Below, piece by piece: positions 1 through 43,498 of a stretch of DNA of 64,000 nucleotides. The DNA comes from Euzebyella saccharophila (GTDB lineage Bacteria > Bacteroidota > Bacteroidia > Flavobacteriales > Flavobacteriaceae). The notes beneath the pieces are model-generated. The model was not told the DNA's origin. It was given only the letters and a program-made list of their open reading frames with translations, and did no database searches. The DNA lies in contig NZ_JACYFJ010000002.1 of assembly GCF_014855495.1 (NCBI RefSeq), positions 372,001 to 436,000 on the forward strand, read 5' to 3'. The stretch's first letter is position 1. Each line of letters opens with the position of its first letter. A program made the translations under genes and the position numbers.

Positions 1-939
1 TCCTCCAGAACTACCAATATTAGTACCAAAGCTGGTATTGTCTATAGGTACCCCATTCACAACTATTAGGGGGTTGTTTGTACCCGAAATGGAGGATTGA
101 CCACGTATACGTACTTTGGAAGATCCACCAGGACCGGTACCAAGGGCCGAAACATTTACCCCCGCCACTTTACCTTGAAGGGTATTCATGAAATTGGAAG
201 AACGGTTTACGTTCACTTCCTCCGCATCCACCTTAGCTACGGAATAGCCTAATTTTCTCGTTTCTTGTTTGATGCCCAAAGCAGTAACCACCACTTCATC
301 CAATGCTTCGGAATCTTCCACTAATTGAACGTTGATGGTGGCCGACTGATTTACCGAAACTTCCTTGGTCGCAAAACCTATGGAGCTAAACACCAAAACG
401 GCATTTGCATTTTGGGTAGCCAAGGAATAATTTCCATCAAAATCTGTTGCCGTTCCGTTGGAGGTCCCTTTTTCAACAACGGAAACCCCCGGAAGAGGCA
501 TTCCATTAGTATCCGTAACAACCCCTGAAATATCTTGTTGAACCTTAGCTTCAGTGTCTTTAATTATTGACGAAGGCAAACTTCTTGTTAGAATTATCTG
601 TGTGTCCAAGATTTCAAACGTAATGGAAGTGTCCTGGAATAAATCGGTGAGTACCCCTTTTAATGGGGCCTTTACATAACTAACACTAACTTTTCTGTTA
701 TAATTGACTTGGTTGTCATTGTAAAGAACTTTAAAGCTAGTAAGAGATTCAATTTCTTGAAATACCTTTTCCAAGGACACATTCTTTAGCTGTAGCGTAA
801 TTTCCGTATCAGCCGAAGACGTGTTTCCCTGAGCCTGAAAAAAAATGATGGCGAAAAGGCAAATACTAAATTTCATTTTTAGCCGTAACTTCAATGGATA
901 GGACATATTCTCCCTAATCCATATGATTGGGTTTTTCAT
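1..939 (-). CDS. SusC/RagA-family TonB-dependent receptor, 5' part (runs off left edge)
   Basis: Outer-membrane receptor that would import oligosaccharides or other ligands with TonB energy. Only the first 313 codons are visible; the reading frame is open to base 1. Residues 22-38 form a signal peptide. Residues about 44-118 look like an STN domain, the periplasmic signalling module that contacts FecR-type anti-sigma factors. Residues 137-205 are a carboxypeptidase-regulatory-like beta-sandwich (VVTDTNGMPLPGVSV). A TonB-box-like stretch (EALDEVVVTALG) follows at about 211-222, and the plug domain starts at about 225. The start at 939 fits the long N-terminus common in STN-type SusC proteins; the ATG at 876 is an alternative. 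It follows the fecR gene on the same strand, so the pair is probably a trans-envelope signalling unit. A SusD partner would lie beyond the left edge; it is not visible. Confidence 0.9.
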   Translation of the reverse strand, partial: MKNPIIWIRENMSYPLKLRLKMKFSICLFAIIFFQAQGNTSSADTEITLQLKNVSLEKVFQEIESLTSFKVLYNDNQVNYNRKVSVSYVKAPLKGVLTDLFQDTSITFEILDTQIILTRSLPSSIIKDTEAKVQQDISGVVTDTNGMPLPGVSVVEKGTSNGTATDFDGNYSLATQNANAVLVFSSIGFATKEVSVNQSATINVQLVEDSEALDEVVVTALGIKQETRKLGYSVAKVDAEEVNVNRSSNFMNTLQGKVAGVNVSALGTGPGGSSKVRIRGQSSISGTNNPLIVVNGVPIDNTSFGTNIGSSGG

Positions 940-36604: not shown

Positions 36605-37003
36605 ATGCATACATACAAAAAGTCCCTTATAGTTAGCGCGGATGATTTAGACGAGCTAGAACATGTAAACAACGTAAGGTACGTACAATGGATTCAAGAT
36701 ATTGCCAAGGAACATTGGCAAGAGACCGTTCCGGAATCTATAAAAAAAGGAATTATTTGGGTGGTTATGACTCATCACATCACTTATAAGTTTCCTGCCA
36801 AATTAAACGACCCCATAATCTTAAGTACCTTTATCAATAAAAGTAAAGGGGCCAAGTCCCAACGGGTGGTAGAAATGCATAACGAGAAAACGGGCCAATT
36901 GCTTGTACGGTCCGTAACAGATTGGTGTATGCTCAACTCCAAAACCAAGCGCCCTATGCGTATTACAGACGATGTAATGAAGTTGTTTGAAAAGAAGTCT
37001 TGA
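36605..37003 (+). CDS. Hotdog-fold acyl-CoA thioesterase
   Basis: Protein of 132 residues, the usual length for a single 4HBT hotdog domain. It has the 4HBT-type DELEHVNNVRYVQWI segment with the D/H-xN region used for catalysis. It would hydrolyse a short or medium acyl-CoA; the substrate is unknown. It directly abuts the glutaminyl cyclase gene. Confidence 0.92.
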   Translation: MHTYKKSLIVSADDLDELEHVNNVRYVQWIQDIAKEHWQETVPESIKKGIIWVVMTHHITYKFPAKLNDPIILSTFINKSKGAKSQRVVEMHNEKTGQLLVRSVTDWCMLNSKTKRPMRITDDVMKLFEKKS

Positions 37004-37025
37004 TTCTCATTTAATAGTCTTAACC

Positions 37026-38522
37026 ATGCGATTGTTCTTCTCGGTTTTAATTGCGCTAGTTTTTGTTTCCGTAATCTCTTGCCGTAAAGAATTCAATTAC
37101 GCCCCAAGTAATGGTAAACTTAGGTTTTCAAAGGATACTGTTTTTTTGGATACCATTTTTACAGGAATAGGAAGTAGTACTTATACTCTAAAAGTTTATA
37201 ATGACCAAAATGAAGATATAGAGATCCCATCTATAAAACTTGAAAACGGAAATAATAGCAACTACCGTATCAATGTAGATGGTATAGCTGGTACTAGTTT
37301 TAATAATATCCCTTTGGGAGCAAATGATAGTCTTTTCATTTTTATTGAAACCACCTATTCCATTCAAAATTCCGAAAAGGAGTTTTTGCATACAGATGTG
37401 CTTTTTTTTGATGAAGGTGCCCACCAACAAAAAATACCGCTAGTAACCTTGGTAAAGGATGCCATTTTCATTTTTCCAGAAAAGGATTTGGAAAGCCCTT
37501 TAAAATCTATTCCCTTAAGTTTTGATGAAACAGCCGAGGAACTATTGGTTACATCTTTTTTTCTTACGGATGAGCATTTGAATTTAAACAATGATAGACC
37601 CTATATTTTCTATGGTTACGCAATGGTGCCTCAAGGAAAAAAATTACGAATTGAAGCTGGGGCCCGTCTATATTTTCATGAAAATAGTGGGTTATATATC
37701 ACTACAAATTCTAGTTTGGAAATTTTGGGTGAGATTAGTTCGGACACGCTATTGTTGGAAAATGAAGTAATTCTTGAAGGGGACCGTTTAGAGCCTGATT
37801 TTAAAAATATACCTGGCCAATGGGGAGGTATCTATTTTGAAGAGAATAGCGGAAGTAGCACCATTAACCATTTAACATTAAAAAATGCCATCAACGGTAT
37901 TTCGATAAAAAAATCCGATACTTTAGATAAAACGACATTATCACTTACCGATTCCAGAATTTACAATAGCACTAATTACAATATTTTAGCCGAAAATTGT
38001 TCCATAAACAGTGAAAATCTAATTTCAGGTAACTCCGGAAAATCATCTGTTTATATAAAAGAAGGAGGTAATTATGCCTTTCTACATGCAACCATTGCCA
38101 ATTATTGGAGCTTTAGCTTAAGAACAGGATTTGCCCTAGAAATAAACAAAAATACCCAGTCAACAAATTTATGTAGCCTGTCTTTTAAAAATTCCATTAT
38201 AACAGGAAATGGCTTGGATGAAATACACTTGGAACTGGAAGATACTGGACTAAATCAATTCTTTTTTGAGAATTGCTTGATTCAATTTAGTAAGGAAGAT
38301 TTAAATGAATTTCCCTATGACTTCACAAATGAAGACCATTACCGAAATATTTTTTTTAACAAAGACCCATTCTTTAAAGGACCTTTGTCAAATAATTTTA
38401 ATTTAGGTATTGAATCTTTTGTAATTGATAAGGGTACCCCAGAAATTCTAGAACAAGTCCCACTGGACATTATGGGTAATAAAAGAGGAGAGATTCCGGA
38501 CTTGGGCGCATTTGAATTATAA
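37026..38522 (+). CDS. Lipoprotein with right-handed beta-helix
   Basis: Predicted lipoprotein of 498 residues; the signal ends at about Cys20 (VSVISC). An N-terminal beta-sandwich (about 30-150) is followed by parallel beta-helix rungs (about 215-460, with repeated N/S ladders such as LTLKNAINGISIKKSDT). The C-terminus (VPLDIMGNKRGEIPDLGAFEL form) is the tail often seen in surface beta-helix proteins. No catalytic acids of GH28 or lyase type are obvious. ATG 37026 is used; an upstream ATG at 36987 would overlap the thioesterase gene and bury the signal peptide. Confidence 0.82.
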   Translation: MRLFFSVLIALVFVSVISCRKEFNYAPSNGKLRFSKDTVFLDTIFTGIGSSTYTLKVYNDQNEDIEIPSIKLENGNNSNYRINVDGIAGTSFNNIPLGANDSLFIFIETTYSIQNSEKEFLHTDVLFFDEGAHQQKIPLVTLVKDAIFIFPEKDLESPLKSIPLSFDETAEELLVTSFFLTDEHLNLNNDRPYIFYGYAMVPQGKKLRIEAGARLYFHENSGLYITTNSSLEILGEISSDTLLLENEVILEGDRLEPDFKNIPGQWGGIYFEENSGSSTINHLTLKNAINGISIKKSDTLDKTTLSLTDSRIYNSTNYNILAENCSINSENLISGNSGKSSVYIKEGGNYAFLHATIANYWSFSLRTGFALEINKNTQSTNLCSLSFKNSIITGNGLDEIHLELEDTGLNQFFFENCLIQFSKEDLNEFPYDFTNEDHYRNIFFNKDPFFKGPLSNNFNLGIESFVIDKGTPEILEQVPLDIMGNKRGEIPDLGAFEL

Positions 38523-38783: not shown

Positions 38784-39515
38784 TTGGAGTACACCTATAC
38801 CATAATAGACTCAGATGCAACTTCCAATTTGCAATTACAGCATTATTTGGAAGACTATGGCGATTTTACTTGCGCTTCTATTGCAAAGGATAGCAATGAG
38901 GGAATCAACTTCATTCTAAAATATTCTCCACAAATTGTTTTCATCAATTTGAACCATAAGGCCCACGAGTATTTTCAAATGGTTATGGAGCTTCATCAAT
39001 ATCTAAATACATTACCCATCTTAATTGGTATAGCCAAAGGAAAGCAACATGCGTACGATGCAATTAAGAGCGGTTTTTTTGATTATTGGTTAATGCCCTA
39101 TAATGAGTTCGATATTAGAAAGTCACTTTTGAGATTAAAGAAACAAATGCCTTTGGAGAGAGAACCACAAACATTGTGTTTAAGTTCCTATAAAGATTTT
39201 CAATATATCAATACAGATGAAATTCTTTATTTAAAGGCAGATAACAATGCTACCGAGTTTGTAATGAAGGATGGTACAATAAACAATGCCTTTAAAACGT
39301 TAAAGACCTTCGAAAATCAATTACCTAAAAATTTTATACGCATACACCAAAGCTATATTGTAAATGTCAATTTTATTTCTAGAATCAGCTATGGTAAGTC
39401 CGTGTGCACCTTAAAACAGAACAAACAGCAACTACCCTTCTCCAAATCGTATAAGAAGAATATTGACTACCTCAAACAAGCGCTATCAAAAAACACCATT
39501 TCTGCCTTAAATTGA
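38784..39515 (+). CDS. LytTR transcription regulator with degenerate receiver domain
   Basis: Regulator of 243 residues. Residues 5-115 have the fold of a CheY-type receiver: DSD at 9-11 and the FFDYWLMPYNEFD end. The phospho-acceptor position in IVFIN is Asn55, not Asp, and the conserved lysine before the proline is Met104, so normal phosphorylation is not expected. Residues about 130-235 are a LytTR DNA-binding domain (DEILYLKADNNATEFV, FIRIHQSYIVNVNFI, LPFSKSYKK). The start is TTG 38784; no ATG fits. It is not paired with an adjacent LytS kinase; a 54-residue lipoprotein gene and a TPR kinase pair follow. Confidence 0.9.
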   Translation: MEYTYTIIDSDATSNLQLQHYLEDYGDFTCASIAKDSNEGINFILKYSPQIVFINLNHKAHEYFQMVMELHQYLNTLPILIGIAKGKQHAYDAIKSGFFDYWLMPYNEFDIRKSLLRLKKQMPLEREPQTLCLSSYKDFQYINTDEILYLKADNNATEFVMKDGTINNAFKTLKTFENQLPKNFIRIHQSYIVNVNFISRISYGKSVCTLKQNKQQLPFSKSYKKNIDYLKQALSKNTISALN

Positions 39516-39656
39516 TTAAATTCTCATAGAATTAGGTCATTCACTCACAAACTGCGGTTAATTACTATTGTTTTTATTTCTGTACTATTTTTCGACTAGC
39601 CTGGTAGTAGTTTAGCATCAAGAAAAAACAATAACCCCTAAAAATCCCACTTTATT

Positions 39657-39821
39657 ATGAAAAAAGTAGTTAGTATTTTCGCAGTAGTAGTTATGTCAAT
39701 CGGAATGTTCTCTTGTGAAGCTGAGAACAATGTTCAAGATACAGATGCCGTTTATGACTTAAACATTGATGCTTCTGTAGATGGTGACGATATTCCAGCC
39801 GACGGAAGAGATAACGGATAA
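39657..39821 (+). CDS. Small lipoprotein (54 residues), possible signal peptide gene
   Basis: Short gene that lies between the LytTR regulator and the histidine kinase. It encodes a basic N-terminus (MKK), a hydrophobic core, a lipobox ending SC at Cys20, and a mature part of 35 residues that is very acidic (Asp/Glu rich: DGDDIPADGRDNG end). The signal is of lipoprotein type, so the peptide would be released by signal peptidase II and anchored or exported. It has its own strong terminator and 140 bases of leader. Gene structure is clear; function is unknown. Confidence 0.8.
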   Translation: MKKVVSIFAVVVMSIGMFSCEAENNVQDTDAVYDLNIDASVDGDDIPADGRDNG

Positions 39822-39848
39822 AATTGCTTTCGTAAATATAAATTAGAA

Positions 39849-39879
39849 AGGCCTTAATGAAAATTAAGGCTTTTTTTTT
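39849..39879 (+). terminator. Terminator after the small lipoprotein gene
   Basis: Perfect stem GCCTTAAT / ATTAAGGC with a GAAA loop, followed by nine T. It ends the short transcript 27 bases after the stop, separating it from the kinase gene. Confidence 0.9.
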
Positions 39880-39902
39880 ACCTTGTATACAAGTAAACCC
39901 CA

Positions 39903-41987
39903 ATGCTTACAAAGCGTAGTACATATAAAATATTTTATATTCCCTTGATTTTTGCCGTGTTGAACCTAGCATGCAAAGACAAAACGACAAAGGGCAATTT
40001 AAATTCAACTGAAAAACAACTGCTGGATTCTATTAACTCTTGGATTCAAAAAAGTAGGAACAGTAATCTAACAATTAATGACAAAAAGTTGTTTTTAAAG
40101 AAAGCTGAAAATTCCTATGAAAAATTTGCAAGCGACTCGATTAAAATAAGACTGATTTCTCGAATTTCGTATTCATATTTAAATAGCTCCGATTCGCAAA
40201 ACTTTAGAAGAACTAACGGAATAGTTTTAAATAGGGCTAATGAAGTGAAAGATTCTTTGAGATTGGCAGAAGCCCACTGGGACTTGGCTATGTTCTTTAA
40301 CTCCAATTCAGTTCCTGATAGCTCCTATTTCCATTATGCCAAGGCGCAAAAACTGTACGAGAACCTTAATAAAGACTTTGAAAATGCCAGAATGCTCTAT
40401 AATATGGCAAGAACCCAAGCCTTGGTCAGGGACTATACCGGAAGTGAAATAAATACCATAAGGGCTATAGAGATATTAAAACCCTTGAATGAATATAAGC
40501 AACTTTATTACTGCTACAGTAATTTAGGCTCTGTTACTAAAGAATTAAAGGAATTTGACCGGGCCATAGAATATTACCAAGAGGCTGGAGAATATTTGGT
40601 AAAATTGAATTCAACCAATGACTTTGAAGTAAGCTTACAAAATAATATGGGAGTGGTTTACCAAGAGCAAGGAAAATACCAAGAATCCATACCTTATTTC
40701 CAAAGAGTTTTACGTACCCCAAATTTACAAGAAGAAAATCCAAAGGTTTATGGCCTAGCCCTTAATCATTTGGCTTATAGCCGTTTGAAGGCAAAACAGA
40801 AAAAAAATGTGGAAAGCGACCTTAGAAAGTCTATTCAGGTTTTGGATAGTGTCAAAAATCTACCTGGGCTTGCTAGAGCCTATTACAATCTTTCCGAGTT
40901 TTATTTAGCACAGCAAGATACGACCCAAGCTATTACCGAAGCGCAAAAGGCTCTCGCCTATTCAAGGGAAAGTAATAATAATGACCGAACACTTTCTACC
41001 TTGCAATTACTTACCAAGTTGGAGCCAGAAAAGTCTGCCTATCATAACCGTAACTATATTTCGCTCAATGATAGCTTGCAACAAGAGGAGCGACAGGTGA
41101 GAAATAAATTTGCAAGAATTCGCTTTGAGACCGATGAATTTATCGCAGAAAACTTACTTCTTGCCAGGCAAAAACAACTATGGTCCGGTATTGCCATTGC
41201 CGTTCTGCTACTAGGTGTTATGTCCTATTTTATTTTAGACCAGCGTGTAAAAAATCAAAAACTACGGTTTCAACAACAGCAACAAGCTGCCAACCAAGAA
41301 ATTTTTAACCTAATGTTGGCTCAAAACCAAAAGAAGGAAGAAGGAAAAAAAATAGAACAAAAAAGAATTTCCGAAGAACTTCATGACGGCGTCTTGGGCA
41401 AAATGTTAGGTGCAAGAATGGTACTGACCGGGCTTAACAAAAAACATGACGAAACTGCCGAAATTGAAAGAAAGAAGGCCATAGATGCACTACAAAACGT
41501 TGAAAAGGAAATTAGAGCCATCTCACATGAACTAAGCCATGCCGCCTATCAAAAAATCAACAATTTTATTCATTCGGTCGAAGATTTGCTAGAAACAGTG
41601 CAGGCGACTGCCGGATTCAATTACGCTTTTGATTATGACCGAAGTTTTAACTGGGATGGTATCCAAGGAAATACTAAAATCAATTTATACAGACTCCTAC
41701 AAGAAAGTCTTCAAAACTCAGTAAAGCACGCCAATTGCAAGAATGTCTCATTAAATCTTCAAATAAAAAAGAATGCAGTAGTGGCAGAGGTAAAAGATGA
41801 CGGCAAGGGCTTCAAAAGCAAAAAAGGAAAAAAAGGAATTGGCATGCGAAATATGGCTTCCAGAATTGAAAAACTTAATGGTAATTGGAACATAAAAAGT
41901 GAAATAGGAAAAGGCACAACTGTGACTTTTACTGTACCTTTGAAGAAAATTACTACTAACGGTTCAAAAGAACCTATACAAGTTTAA
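39903..41987 (+). CDS. TPR sensor histidine kinase with lipoprotein-type signal
   Basis: Kinase of 694 residues. The N-terminus has a lipobox (VLNLAC, Cys about 24), then TPR repeats (about 125-375, for example SNLGSVTKELKEFDRAIEYYQEA cut as TPR units) in the periplasm. A membrane helix follows at about 422-442, a coiled coil at about 445-490, then a HisKA_3-like dimerisation part with SEELHDGVLGKM (His494). The ATPase domain has QESLQNSVKHA, DDGKGF and GIGMRNM boxes (about 590-685). The response regulator starts 12 bases later; the two form a two-component pair. Confidence 0.92.
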   Translation: MLTKRSTYKIFYIPLIFAVLNLACKDKTTKGNLNSTEKQLLDSINSWIQKSRNSNLTINDKKLFLKKAENSYEKFASDSIKIRLISRISYSYLNSSDSQNFRRTNGIVLNRANEVKDSLRLAEAHWDLAMFFNSNSVPDSSYFHYAKAQKLYENLNKDFENARMLYNMARTQALVRDYTGSEINTIRAIEILKPLNEYKQLYYCYSNLGSVTKELKEFDRAIEYYQEAGEYLVKLNSTNDFEVSLQNNMGVVYQEQGKYQESIPYFQRVLRTPNLQEENPKVYGLALNHLAYSRLKAKQKKNVESDLRKSIQVLDSVKNLPGLARAYYNLSEFYLAQQDTTQAITEAQKALAYSRESNNNDRTLSTLQLLTKLEPEKSAYHNRNYISLNDSLQQEERQVRNKFARIRFETDEFIAENLLLARQKQLWSGIAIAVLLLGVMSYFILDQRVKNQKLRFQQQQQAANQEIFNLMLAQNQKKEEGKKIEQKRISEELHDGVLGKMLGARMVLTGLNKKHDETAEIERKKAIDALQNVEKEIRAISHELSHAAYQKINNFIHSVEDLLETVQATAGFNYAFDYDRSFNWDGIQGNTKINLYRLLQESLQNSVKHANCKNVSLNLQIKKNAVVAEVKDDGKGFKSKKGKKGIGMRNMASRIEKLNGNWNIKSEIGKGTTVTFTVPLKKITTNGSKEPIQV

Positions 41988-41999
41988 GGAAGCAGAAGT

Positions 42000-42671
42000 A
42001 TGGATAAGATTGTGCGAATTCTCGCTGTAGATGACCACGAAATGATTGTTCTAGGGTACAAATACACCTTAGAAGGTACCGATTTTGAAAATTACAAAGT
42101 AGTTGTAAATACAGCCCCCAGTTATGAAAAGGGCAAGGCAGAAATTGAAAGTGCTGCCAATAGAATTCCCTATGACATTATTCTACTGGATATTTCTATG
42201 TTTCCGGACAGTGCAAAAGAAGAGCGTAGCGGCGAAGATTTAGGTTTATTGGCCAAAGAAATTTCGCCAACTTCTAAAATTGTGTTTTTGTCTTCGTTTA
42301 GCGATAGTTACCGAATTAATCACTTGTTAAAAACGGTGAATCCGGATGGGTACATGGTGAAATCTGAAGTAGATGAAAGAACCTTACAGGAAATGGTGAA
42401 AACTGTTTTAGATCAACCGCCATATTATACAGCTGCCGCCCTACAGGCCATTAGAAGAAAAATGGCCAATGAAGATCAAATTGATGAACGTGATAAAAAA
42501 ATTCTTTATCAGCTTTCCATTGGTACAAAGACCAAGGACATTTCTTCTATAGTAGCTGCTGCCAGCACAACTGTAGAGAATAGAAAACGTCATTTAAAAG
42601 TTATTTTTGGTGTCGAAAACGGAAATGACTTCGCTTTAATAGAAGAAGCCAGAAAAAGAGGGTTTATTTAA
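42000..42671 (+). CDS. NarL/FixJ-type response regulator
   Basis: Partner regulator of the preceding kinase, 223 residues. The receiver (1-130) has DDHE (11-14), the phospho-acceptor Asp64 in ILLDIS, and a Lys in YMVKSE. The C-terminal part (about 160-223) is a LuxR-like helix-turn-helix (LYQLSIGTKTKDI, TVENRKRHLKVIFG). It probably controls genes from the histidine kinase signal; the targets are unknown. A hairpin terminator follows. Confidence 0.92.
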   Translation: MDKIVRILAVDDHEMIVLGYKYTLEGTDFENYKVVVNTAPSYEKGKAEIESAANRIPYDIILLDISMFPDSAKEERSGEDLGLLAKEISPTSKIVFLSSFSDSYRINHLLKTVNPDGYMVKSEVDERTLQEMVKTVLDQPPYYTAAALQAIRRKMANEDQIDERDKKILYQLSIGTKTKDISSIVAAASTTVENRKRHLKVIFGVENGNDFALIEEARKRGFI

Positions 42672-42838: not shown

Positions 42839-43498
42839 ATGCCTTCATTCCCAGAAAATTTCGAATACAATTCTTCCGGAGGTTACAACATAGGTTTGCG
42901 GCTGGAGGGAATTGAAAAATTTAAGAAAAGTTTAGAAAAATTCTTTTTTTCTATTGCTACCATAAGACATTCAACTTCAAACAATAGCCATATCAACCTC
43001 GCTATTGAATTGGAATGCAATATGAGTTTAGTGGAGATGCTATTCCACTTCAATCGTGGTACCTGGGGCAACTTTTCCCAAGGTAGCACATCCTTTGTAG
43101 GGACATTAGAGAATTTCAAGAAAGCAAATCCTGTAAACCTAGATATTGAGGAAATTTCTATTCTCTTCACGGATACCCGTTTGATTATCAACAAAATATA
43201 TTCAAAAAGTATCCCGGAACAACTGGACAATATATTCAAGGAAATGGGTAGGCATTATGTCCATTTCAGTAAAGGGCTTTCAGAAACCCCATATGAAATT
43301 TATGTACCAGTATTTGAGGAAGAACATTCTGCGGACGAAATTATCCTGGGAAGTCTTGAAGTTTCCAATCATACACAGAAGGATTACTTTAATTTTTGGG
43401 GACTTTACTTTGAATCTGAAGATGATGCTGTTATTTATGATCTAAAAGGGTCCCATCTAGAGAATGGTGATCTTTTTATGTTGAGTTCAGACGATTAA
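42839..43498 (+). CDS. Conserved protein of unknown function
   Basis: Unrecognised cytoplasmic-looking protein of 219 residues with no signal peptide or membrane helix. It is moderately acidic, with mixed alpha/beta pattern. The C-terminal half has an IYVPVFEEEHSADEII segment followed by several Asp/Glu-rich loops. It has its own promoter and follows a two-component pair without joining its transcript. It may be a stress or regulatory target, but nothing shows it. Confidence 0.7.
   Translation: MPSFPENFEYNSSGGYNIGLRLEGIEKFKKSLEKFFFSIATIRHSTSNNSHINLAIELECNMSLVEMLFHFNRGTWGNFSQGSTSFVGTLENFKKANPVNLDIEEISILFTDTRLIINKIYSKSIPEQLDNIFKEMGRHYVHFSKGLSETPYEIYVPVFEEEHSADEIILGSLEVSNHTQKDYFNFWGLYFESEDDAVIYDLKGSHLENGDLFMLSSDD

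Follow-up and report, generated by a model that had tools for sequence, protein, structure and literature searches.

Does a small exported protein encoded between a LytTR-domain regulator and a sensor histidine kinase serve as a signal that its own neighbours produce and read? This question is raised by a locus in a 64,000-nucleotide stretch of the Euzebyella saccharophila genome (assembly GCF_014855495.1, contig NZ_JACYFJ010000002.1, positions 372,001 to 436,000, forward strand), hereafter the window, where a LytTR gene, a small gene, the gene of a kinase with tetratricopeptide repeats (TPR) and a NarL-type regulator gene follow one another. All four frames lie on the plus strand, at the places given by a first-pass annotation made from the letters alone, which had proposed that the small product is transcribed under, or sensed by, its neighbours. 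The cassette appears to be a peptide-signalling circuit not described before: in the explanation that we favour, with roughly even confidence, the LytTR protein would drive expression of an exported peptide precursor, a unit of which would be read by the TPR kinase.

Pfam searches supported the assigned gene identities to different degrees. The LytTR protein carries the LytTR domain (PF04397, E 2.6e-18) as annotated, whereas its receiver is degenerate, its phospho-acceptor position being Asn in the window's protein as well as in those of 58 of 67 clade-1 relatives, and Asp in just 10 of 123 relatives. The kinase matched TPR_12 (2.8e-17) and HATPase_c (1e-12), with HisKA_3 slightly under its cut-off (22.4 against 24 bits), and the regulator matched Response_reg and GerE, both under the Pfam cut-offs. 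Two NCBIfam assignments were rejected, namely the small protein as a PG1828 family lipoprotein (23.4 bits against a cut-off of 50, residues 1–31 only) and the kinase as FimS (29.6 bits, far under the cut-off of 600).

The neighbourhood was analysed in loci found through the LytTR protein, the small gene not being used for finding them. Among 299 Flavobacteriaceae genomes, 78 matched at E ≤ 1e-45 with 82 matches in total, and 80 of these matches with their flanks, together with the best 80 named loci from a separate scan, yielded 153 non-redundant loci. A leader-bearing frame between LytTR and kinase genes passed our filter in 147 of the 153, and in 145 after the frames of L181 and L186 had been dropped as unrelated proteins; the second LytTR gene of one genome (L076) was left out of this count. 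As the same filter accepted 37 of 3040 Markov-simulated gaps (1.2%) and 9 of the 153 gaps on the reverse strand, the exported frame exceeds chance. The remaining loci end at contig ends (L137, L175), lack the small gene along with the kinase (L082, L087, L141) or hold a truncated small frame only (L083). Precursors are present in four loci that a filter requiring acidity had passed over (L154, L184, L187, L189). The complete quartet of LytTR protein, exported small protein, TPR kinase and NarL-type regulator was found in 132 of the 153 loci, bearing out the conserved neighbour pattern on which the first-pass annotation had made its proposal depend. In the last two LytTR matches, outside the 153 (L197, L198), precursor, kinase and regulator are likewise all present.

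Genes may also stay together through a conserved chromosome region alone, with no joint function. Clade 1 (c1; LytTR proteins at least 50% identical, 72 loci) would agree with this, since several flanking genes are likewise kept, each in 56 to 70 of its loci. However, these flanking genes are nearly absent from the other two clades, c2 with 31 loci and c3 with 42 (each gene in 0 or 1 locus), and the quartet nonetheless stays together; of the 145 loci in the three clades, 145 have the LytTR family, 140 the kinase family and 137 the regulator family. The module thus travels or persists independently of its surroundings. Since the operator-like repeats described below moreover tie the LytTR gene to the small gene, we regard mere adjacency as very improbable. 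Among the other families of the order, none of four LytTR matches (L191–L194) had the cassette, and in a sample of the phylum it occurred in 22 of 296 genomes, 21 of those 22 belonging to Flavobacteriaceae.

The small gene is a real gene under purifying selection at the protein level. Its frame carries at its start a leader of the signal type together with a lipobox (GMFSC), and a strong terminator-like hairpin follows on its 3' side. The pooled ratio of nonsynonymous to synonymous changes (pN/pS) was 0.25 in the frame, compared with 1.28 and 1.19 in the other two frames, over 14 gap-free pairs that have members in common and hence are not independent. Between the window and its nearest neighbour in the pair set (L031–L032), 16.5 changes were silent and 4.5 were not. 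The selection that the first-pass annotation had asked of this frame is therefore present. The 54-residue frame was found in all three genomes of the genus, and relatives of the small protein in 90 of the 299 family genomes at E ≤ 0.1, although many of these weak matches cover the leader alone. At E ≤ 0.001 there were 38 genomes, 37 of which also have a LytTR match; the sole genome outside the LytTR list (G256) aligns at residues 2–38 only.

The part following the leader is a tandem array in 23 of the 145 precursors, 25 having been flagged and two (L149, L156) taken out as weak repeats. The period is 12 to 15 residues in 18 of the 23, 17 in one and 28 in four. Zobellia barbeyronii (L111) has about 10 to 11 copies of the unit STDGDDVQIDRRGS, and corresponding units are ATGGDKGSVADRD in Maribacter (L117), IIGGSSTGGNVKVD in Flavobacterium frigidarium (L190) and CDDCSHDKDEREAVA in L051; read by eye, L121 has a longer repeated unit and L050 and L136 two loose copies. 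Single-copy precursors, including that of the window, end in a unit of about 14 residues that matches the tandem one (ASVDGDDIPADGRD). Adjacent copies within a precursor differ mostly by silent changes (pooled pN/pS 0.26), with 13 silent and no other changes in L075 and 7 silent and no other in L077. One genus (code g2) contains two genomes with 1 copy (L038) and 8 copies (L035), and on a tree of LytTR and regulator sequences (123 rows) the repeat state changed at least 13 times; tandem precursors have arisen or vanished this often, each copy being kept at the protein level. Within clade-1 units (L031–L077, L111–L143), a T..D pair (TDGD) alternates with a C..C pair (CDGC, CDDC). A link between lipobox loss and CxxC, suggested by the presence of CxxC in 16 of the 20 clade-1 loci without a lipobox and in 5 of the 52 with one, was dropped, as it is not significant on independent pairs. 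One genome (G032; L049/L076) carries two LytTR genes of the same family in tandem ahead of one precursor with about six CDDC units.

The lipobox itself is dispensable across relatives. By pattern it is missing in about 40 of the 145, the figure being approximate because L089 and L182 look like pattern artefacts. Of 25 precursor-bearing loci from named Flavobacterium, 20 have no lipobox, and its presence changed at least 6 times on the tree. The description of the product as an acidic lipoprotein accordingly fits the window, which has the lipobox, and is too narrow for the family, where the mature part is neutral on average in the 14 Flavobacterium-type non-lipobox loci examined. Taken together with the protein-level conservation of the tandem units, the loss of the lipobox points to the C-terminal unit as the putative functional part, rather than a lipid anchor or spacer. 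The same observations bear on a different role, in which the intact small protein would report on Sec or lipoprotein traffic and bind the TPR domain to set the kinase off or on, as a sentinel of the envelope analogous to the enterobacterial CpxP, NlpE and RcsF. The position of a small exported protein next to a kinase with a predicted extracytoplasmic TPR domain, the conserved leader sequence and operator-like repeats that would permit feedback all suit a sentinel. The loss of the lipid anchor, at least several times over, nevertheless excludes lipoprotein sorting as the common input, and the conserved tandem units direct attention to the C-terminal unit, leaving this role improbable in our judgement.

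Alignment of the region between the LytTR gene and the small gene made repeated blocks visible. Upstream of the small gene, pairs of a degenerate motif at a distance of 21 bp numbered 210 against 16 expected from shuffles, and pairs at 42 bp 120 against 15; triples spaced by 20–23 bp were present in 78 of 145 loci compared with 2.8% of shuffles. The excess at 21 bp was found in every identity class (142 against 7, 49 against 4 and 19 against 3). Because the motif was chosen only after the alignment had been viewed, which counts against these shuffle numbers, the region and strand controls outweigh them: at lag 21, a single pair was counted in the gap separating small gene and kinase, 7 pairs on the opposite strand and 19 within the end of the LytTR gene, and the region upstream of the LytTR gene gave 26, its mean over other lags being 12. 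In the window, the motif copies begin at 39521, 39542 and 39563. According to PMC2766830, LytTR domains bind 9-bp repeats lying 12 bp apart, and a 12-bp separation is described for most such LytTR promoters in PMC6193735; a 9-bp repeat plus a 12-bp gap gives 21 bp and matches the spacing observed here. A coarse operator search of the window's own genome returned three one-mismatch forward matches (control pattern: none forward, one reverse), just one of which lies at this locus, and it allows no conclusion.

A looser scan of the final 120 nt upstream of the small gene picked up, in 55 of 145 loci, an element resembling TAnnTTTG, which we take to be the −7 consensus of Bacteroidota and on which the label of TAGTTTAG as a candidate promoter element is based. 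A hairpin of −6 kcal/mol or lower ahead of a T-run was found 3' of the small gene in 126 of 145 loci, compared with 2.2% of shuffles, in agreement with the separate terminator annotated for the window. The 21-bp repeats and the terminator together indicate that the small gene is most likely a transcript of its own, controlled by the LytTR protein, which would bind at the repeats. Of the two relations proposed at the outset, transcription under a neighbour is thus the one that appears well supported, the LytTR-type repeats standing on one strand and not before the kinase. The loci in which precursor and kinase are absent and LytTR protein and regulator present still have motif copies 21 bp apart behind the LytTR gene, three in L082 and L087 and two in L141.

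For sensing, the other proposed relation, the kinase is the candidate. Its TPR domain is predicted to lie outside the cytoplasm, based on a signal-like start and a transmembrane segment read by eye. The model of the TPR region is a superhelix, and its structural matches include chains of the quorum sensors Rap and NprR and of AimR, as well as unrelated TPR proteins. The lipoprotein-type signal annotated for the kinase is weak in the window, where LNLAC fails the lipobox pattern; with 54 of 123 kinases passing, the pattern decides neither way on a lipoprotein nature of the kinase in general. The peptide-receptor-like fold and the joint absence of small gene and kinase in three loci suggest that the exported unit is probably sensed by the TPR kinase.

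Several results weigh against this assignment. In the mirror-tree analysis, the partial correlation between small protein and TPR domain given the LytTR distance was 0.02 (reached by 103 of 300 permutations), the small protein tracking the TPR domain no more closely than LytTR, and that between small protein and regulator given the TPR domain was 0.35. With the kinase or the regulator distance held fixed, small-protein and TPR distances did retain partial correlations of 0.19 and 0.21, values reached in none of 300 permutations. Charge matching between peptide and TPR domain gave r 0.03, so that the two tests of co-variation lent sensing no additional support. The best structural match of the TPR domain is eukaryotic LGN, and TPR superhelices bind many ligands. 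In three loci (L083, L181, L186), a kinase match is present and an intact precursor is missing, and the examined flanks contained no further gene family common to the three clades, including a dedicated protease or exporter.

The lack of specific co-variation with the TPR domain would suit a small protein that is an output, such as an antimicrobial, matrix, adhesive or ion-binding product under LytTR control, with a kinase that senses something else and gates its production. Its own promoter region, the operator-like repeats and the strong terminator suggest high and separate expression, which suits an output, and repeat expansion multiplies the copies of the unit. The small gene is, however, gone together with the kinase in L082, L087 and L141, and no toxin, immunity or modification genes common to the flanks were found. 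The faster divergence of the TPR domain (mean identity 0.38, compared with 0.63 for LytTR) fits a ligand pair, but equally any sensor. We therefore consider an output unlikely, though more credible than a sentinel.

In the favoured peptide-signalling circuit, the small gene would encode the precursor of an exported peptide, taken across the membrane by Sec as a lipoprotein in the window and presumably as a plain secreted protein in other lineages; its active part would be the roughly 14-residue C-terminal unit, present once or several times. The LytTR protein, lacking a phospho-acceptor, may bind the direct repeats, three in number, that precede the small gene, and drive a short separate transcript ending at the terminator. 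Peptide or intact unit would then be bound by the extracytoplasmic TPR domain, and the kinase would signal via the NarL-type regulator, so that the loop closes on the cell itself and perhaps on neighbouring cells. Going further, the cassette may be a native pheromone system of Bacteroidota, in which Flavobacteriaceae would release short peptides cut from multi-copy, Sec-exported precursors, read them through an extracytoplasmic TPR kinase resembling an outward-turned quorum-sensing receptor, and amplify the response through a phosphorylation-independent LytTR activator and a triple operator; we put this version forward tentatively, at somewhat less than even confidence.

Known systems share parts of this arrangement. 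The Agr, Com, Blp and Sil systems of Bacillota likewise combine a histidine kinase and a LytTR regulator with an adjacent small gene for the precursor, and have LytTR-spaced direct repeats ahead of the precursor gene. In Agr/Com-type systems, however, the LytTR response regulator is phosphorylatable, the kinase is a polytopic HPK10-type protein and export relies on AgrB or an ABC exporter, whereas the cassette has a LytTR protein mostly without phospho-acceptor (Asp in 10 of 123), a kinase that combines TPR sensor, HisKA_3-like core and HATPase_c, the Sec route and no exporter in the gene set shared by the locus flanks; its kinase instead pairs with a separate NarL-type regulator. FimS/FimR of Porphyromonas gingivalis is another Bacteroidota pair of TPR sensor kinase and LuxR-type regulator, and we know of no LytTR protein or small precursor there. 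With the RRNPP(A) systems of Bacillota (Rap–Phr, NprR–NprX, AimR), the cassette has in common a TPR superhelical receptor and, as a candidate likeness, a Sec-type propeptide, for which a signal-like leader and a C-terminal unit are seen here; tandemly duplicated pheromone units occur there too, according to PMC11343458. RRNPP(A) receptors are, in contrast, cytoplasmic and kinase-free and bind imported peptide, whereas in the cassette a membrane histidine kinase carries the TPR domain, with a predicted location outside the cytoplasm. Since its LytTR protein is not phosphorylatable, its kinase is not of the HPK10 type and its TPR receptor lies within a membrane kinase, the cassette resembles Agr/Com/Sil and RRNPP and is a member of neither. 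The streptococcal LytTR Regulatory Systems likewise comprise LytTR proteins without phosphorelay input and 9-bp repeats mostly 12 bp apart, and pair the regulator with a membrane inhibitor, with repeats ahead of their own operon (PMC6193735). The cassette differs in having no shared membrane-inhibitor gene and in carrying its repeats ahead of the precursor gene (210 pairs), with little sign of them ahead of the LytTR gene (26, against a mean of 12 at other lags).

The full-text literature, in its open-access part and hence without proof of absence, yielded no description of this system or of peptide quorum sensing in Bacteroidota. The cassette supplies candidate peptides, receptor, activator and operator in culturable Zobellia, Maribacter, Aquimarina and Flavobacterium, and with such named candidates the question of peptide signalling becomes directly testable. 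To our knowledge, neither an established peptide quorum-sensing system nor tandem peptide precursors are known in Bacteroidota. The features of the locus are compiled in Table 1.

Table 1 Features of the cassette in the window (positions in the window unless given as residues)
Feature	Position	Strand	Remarks
LytTR-domain transcription regulator, degenerate receiver	38784..39515	+	TTG start, 243 aa
Operator-like direct repeat 1, AATTCTCATAGAAT	39519..39532	+	
Operator-like direct repeat 2, TTCACTCACAAACT	39540..39553	+	spaced 21 bp from repeat 1
Operator-like direct repeat 3, ATTACTATTGTTTT	39561..39574	+	spaced 21 bp from repeat 2
Candidate −7 promoter element, TAGTTTAG	39608..39615	+	ATG 42 nt downstream; TA.TTT.G column kept in clade-1 alignment
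Small exported protein, 54 aa	39657..39821	+	signal sequence residues 1-19, lipobox Cys20
C-terminal unit ASVDGDDIPADGRD, residues 39-52	39771..39812	+	single-copy equivalent of the relatives' tandem unit, by alignment
Intrinsic terminator of the small gene	39845..39876	+	predicted; terminator-like stem, then T
TPR sensor histidine kinase, 694 aa	39903..41987	+	phospho-acceptor His494
TPR region of the kinase, modelled part	39996-41177	+	
Transmembrane segment of the kinase	residues ~427-445		read by eye
NarL/LuxR-type response regulator, 223 aa	42000..42671	+	phospho-acceptor Asp64

Variant layouts were seen in three loci. In L181 and L186, the LytTR gene is directly followed by a NarL-type regulator, a different exported protein of about 120 residues and then the kinase match; neither the precursor nor the 21-bp triple was found in these two. 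A Flavobacterium-coded genome (L195) has its regulator match upstream on the opposite strand, followed by LytTR gene, lipoprotein-type small frame and kinase. The window genome itself (G000) has 12 LytTR-domain matches above the family cut-off. Two frames flanking the cassette on the plus strand matched no family above cut-off, in Pfam or NCBIfam for the first: a 219-residue frame (42839–43498), whose family directly follows the regulator in 69 of the 72 clade-1 loci, and a 511-residue lipoprotein-like frame (36987–38522), found upstream of the LytTR gene in 56 of the 72.

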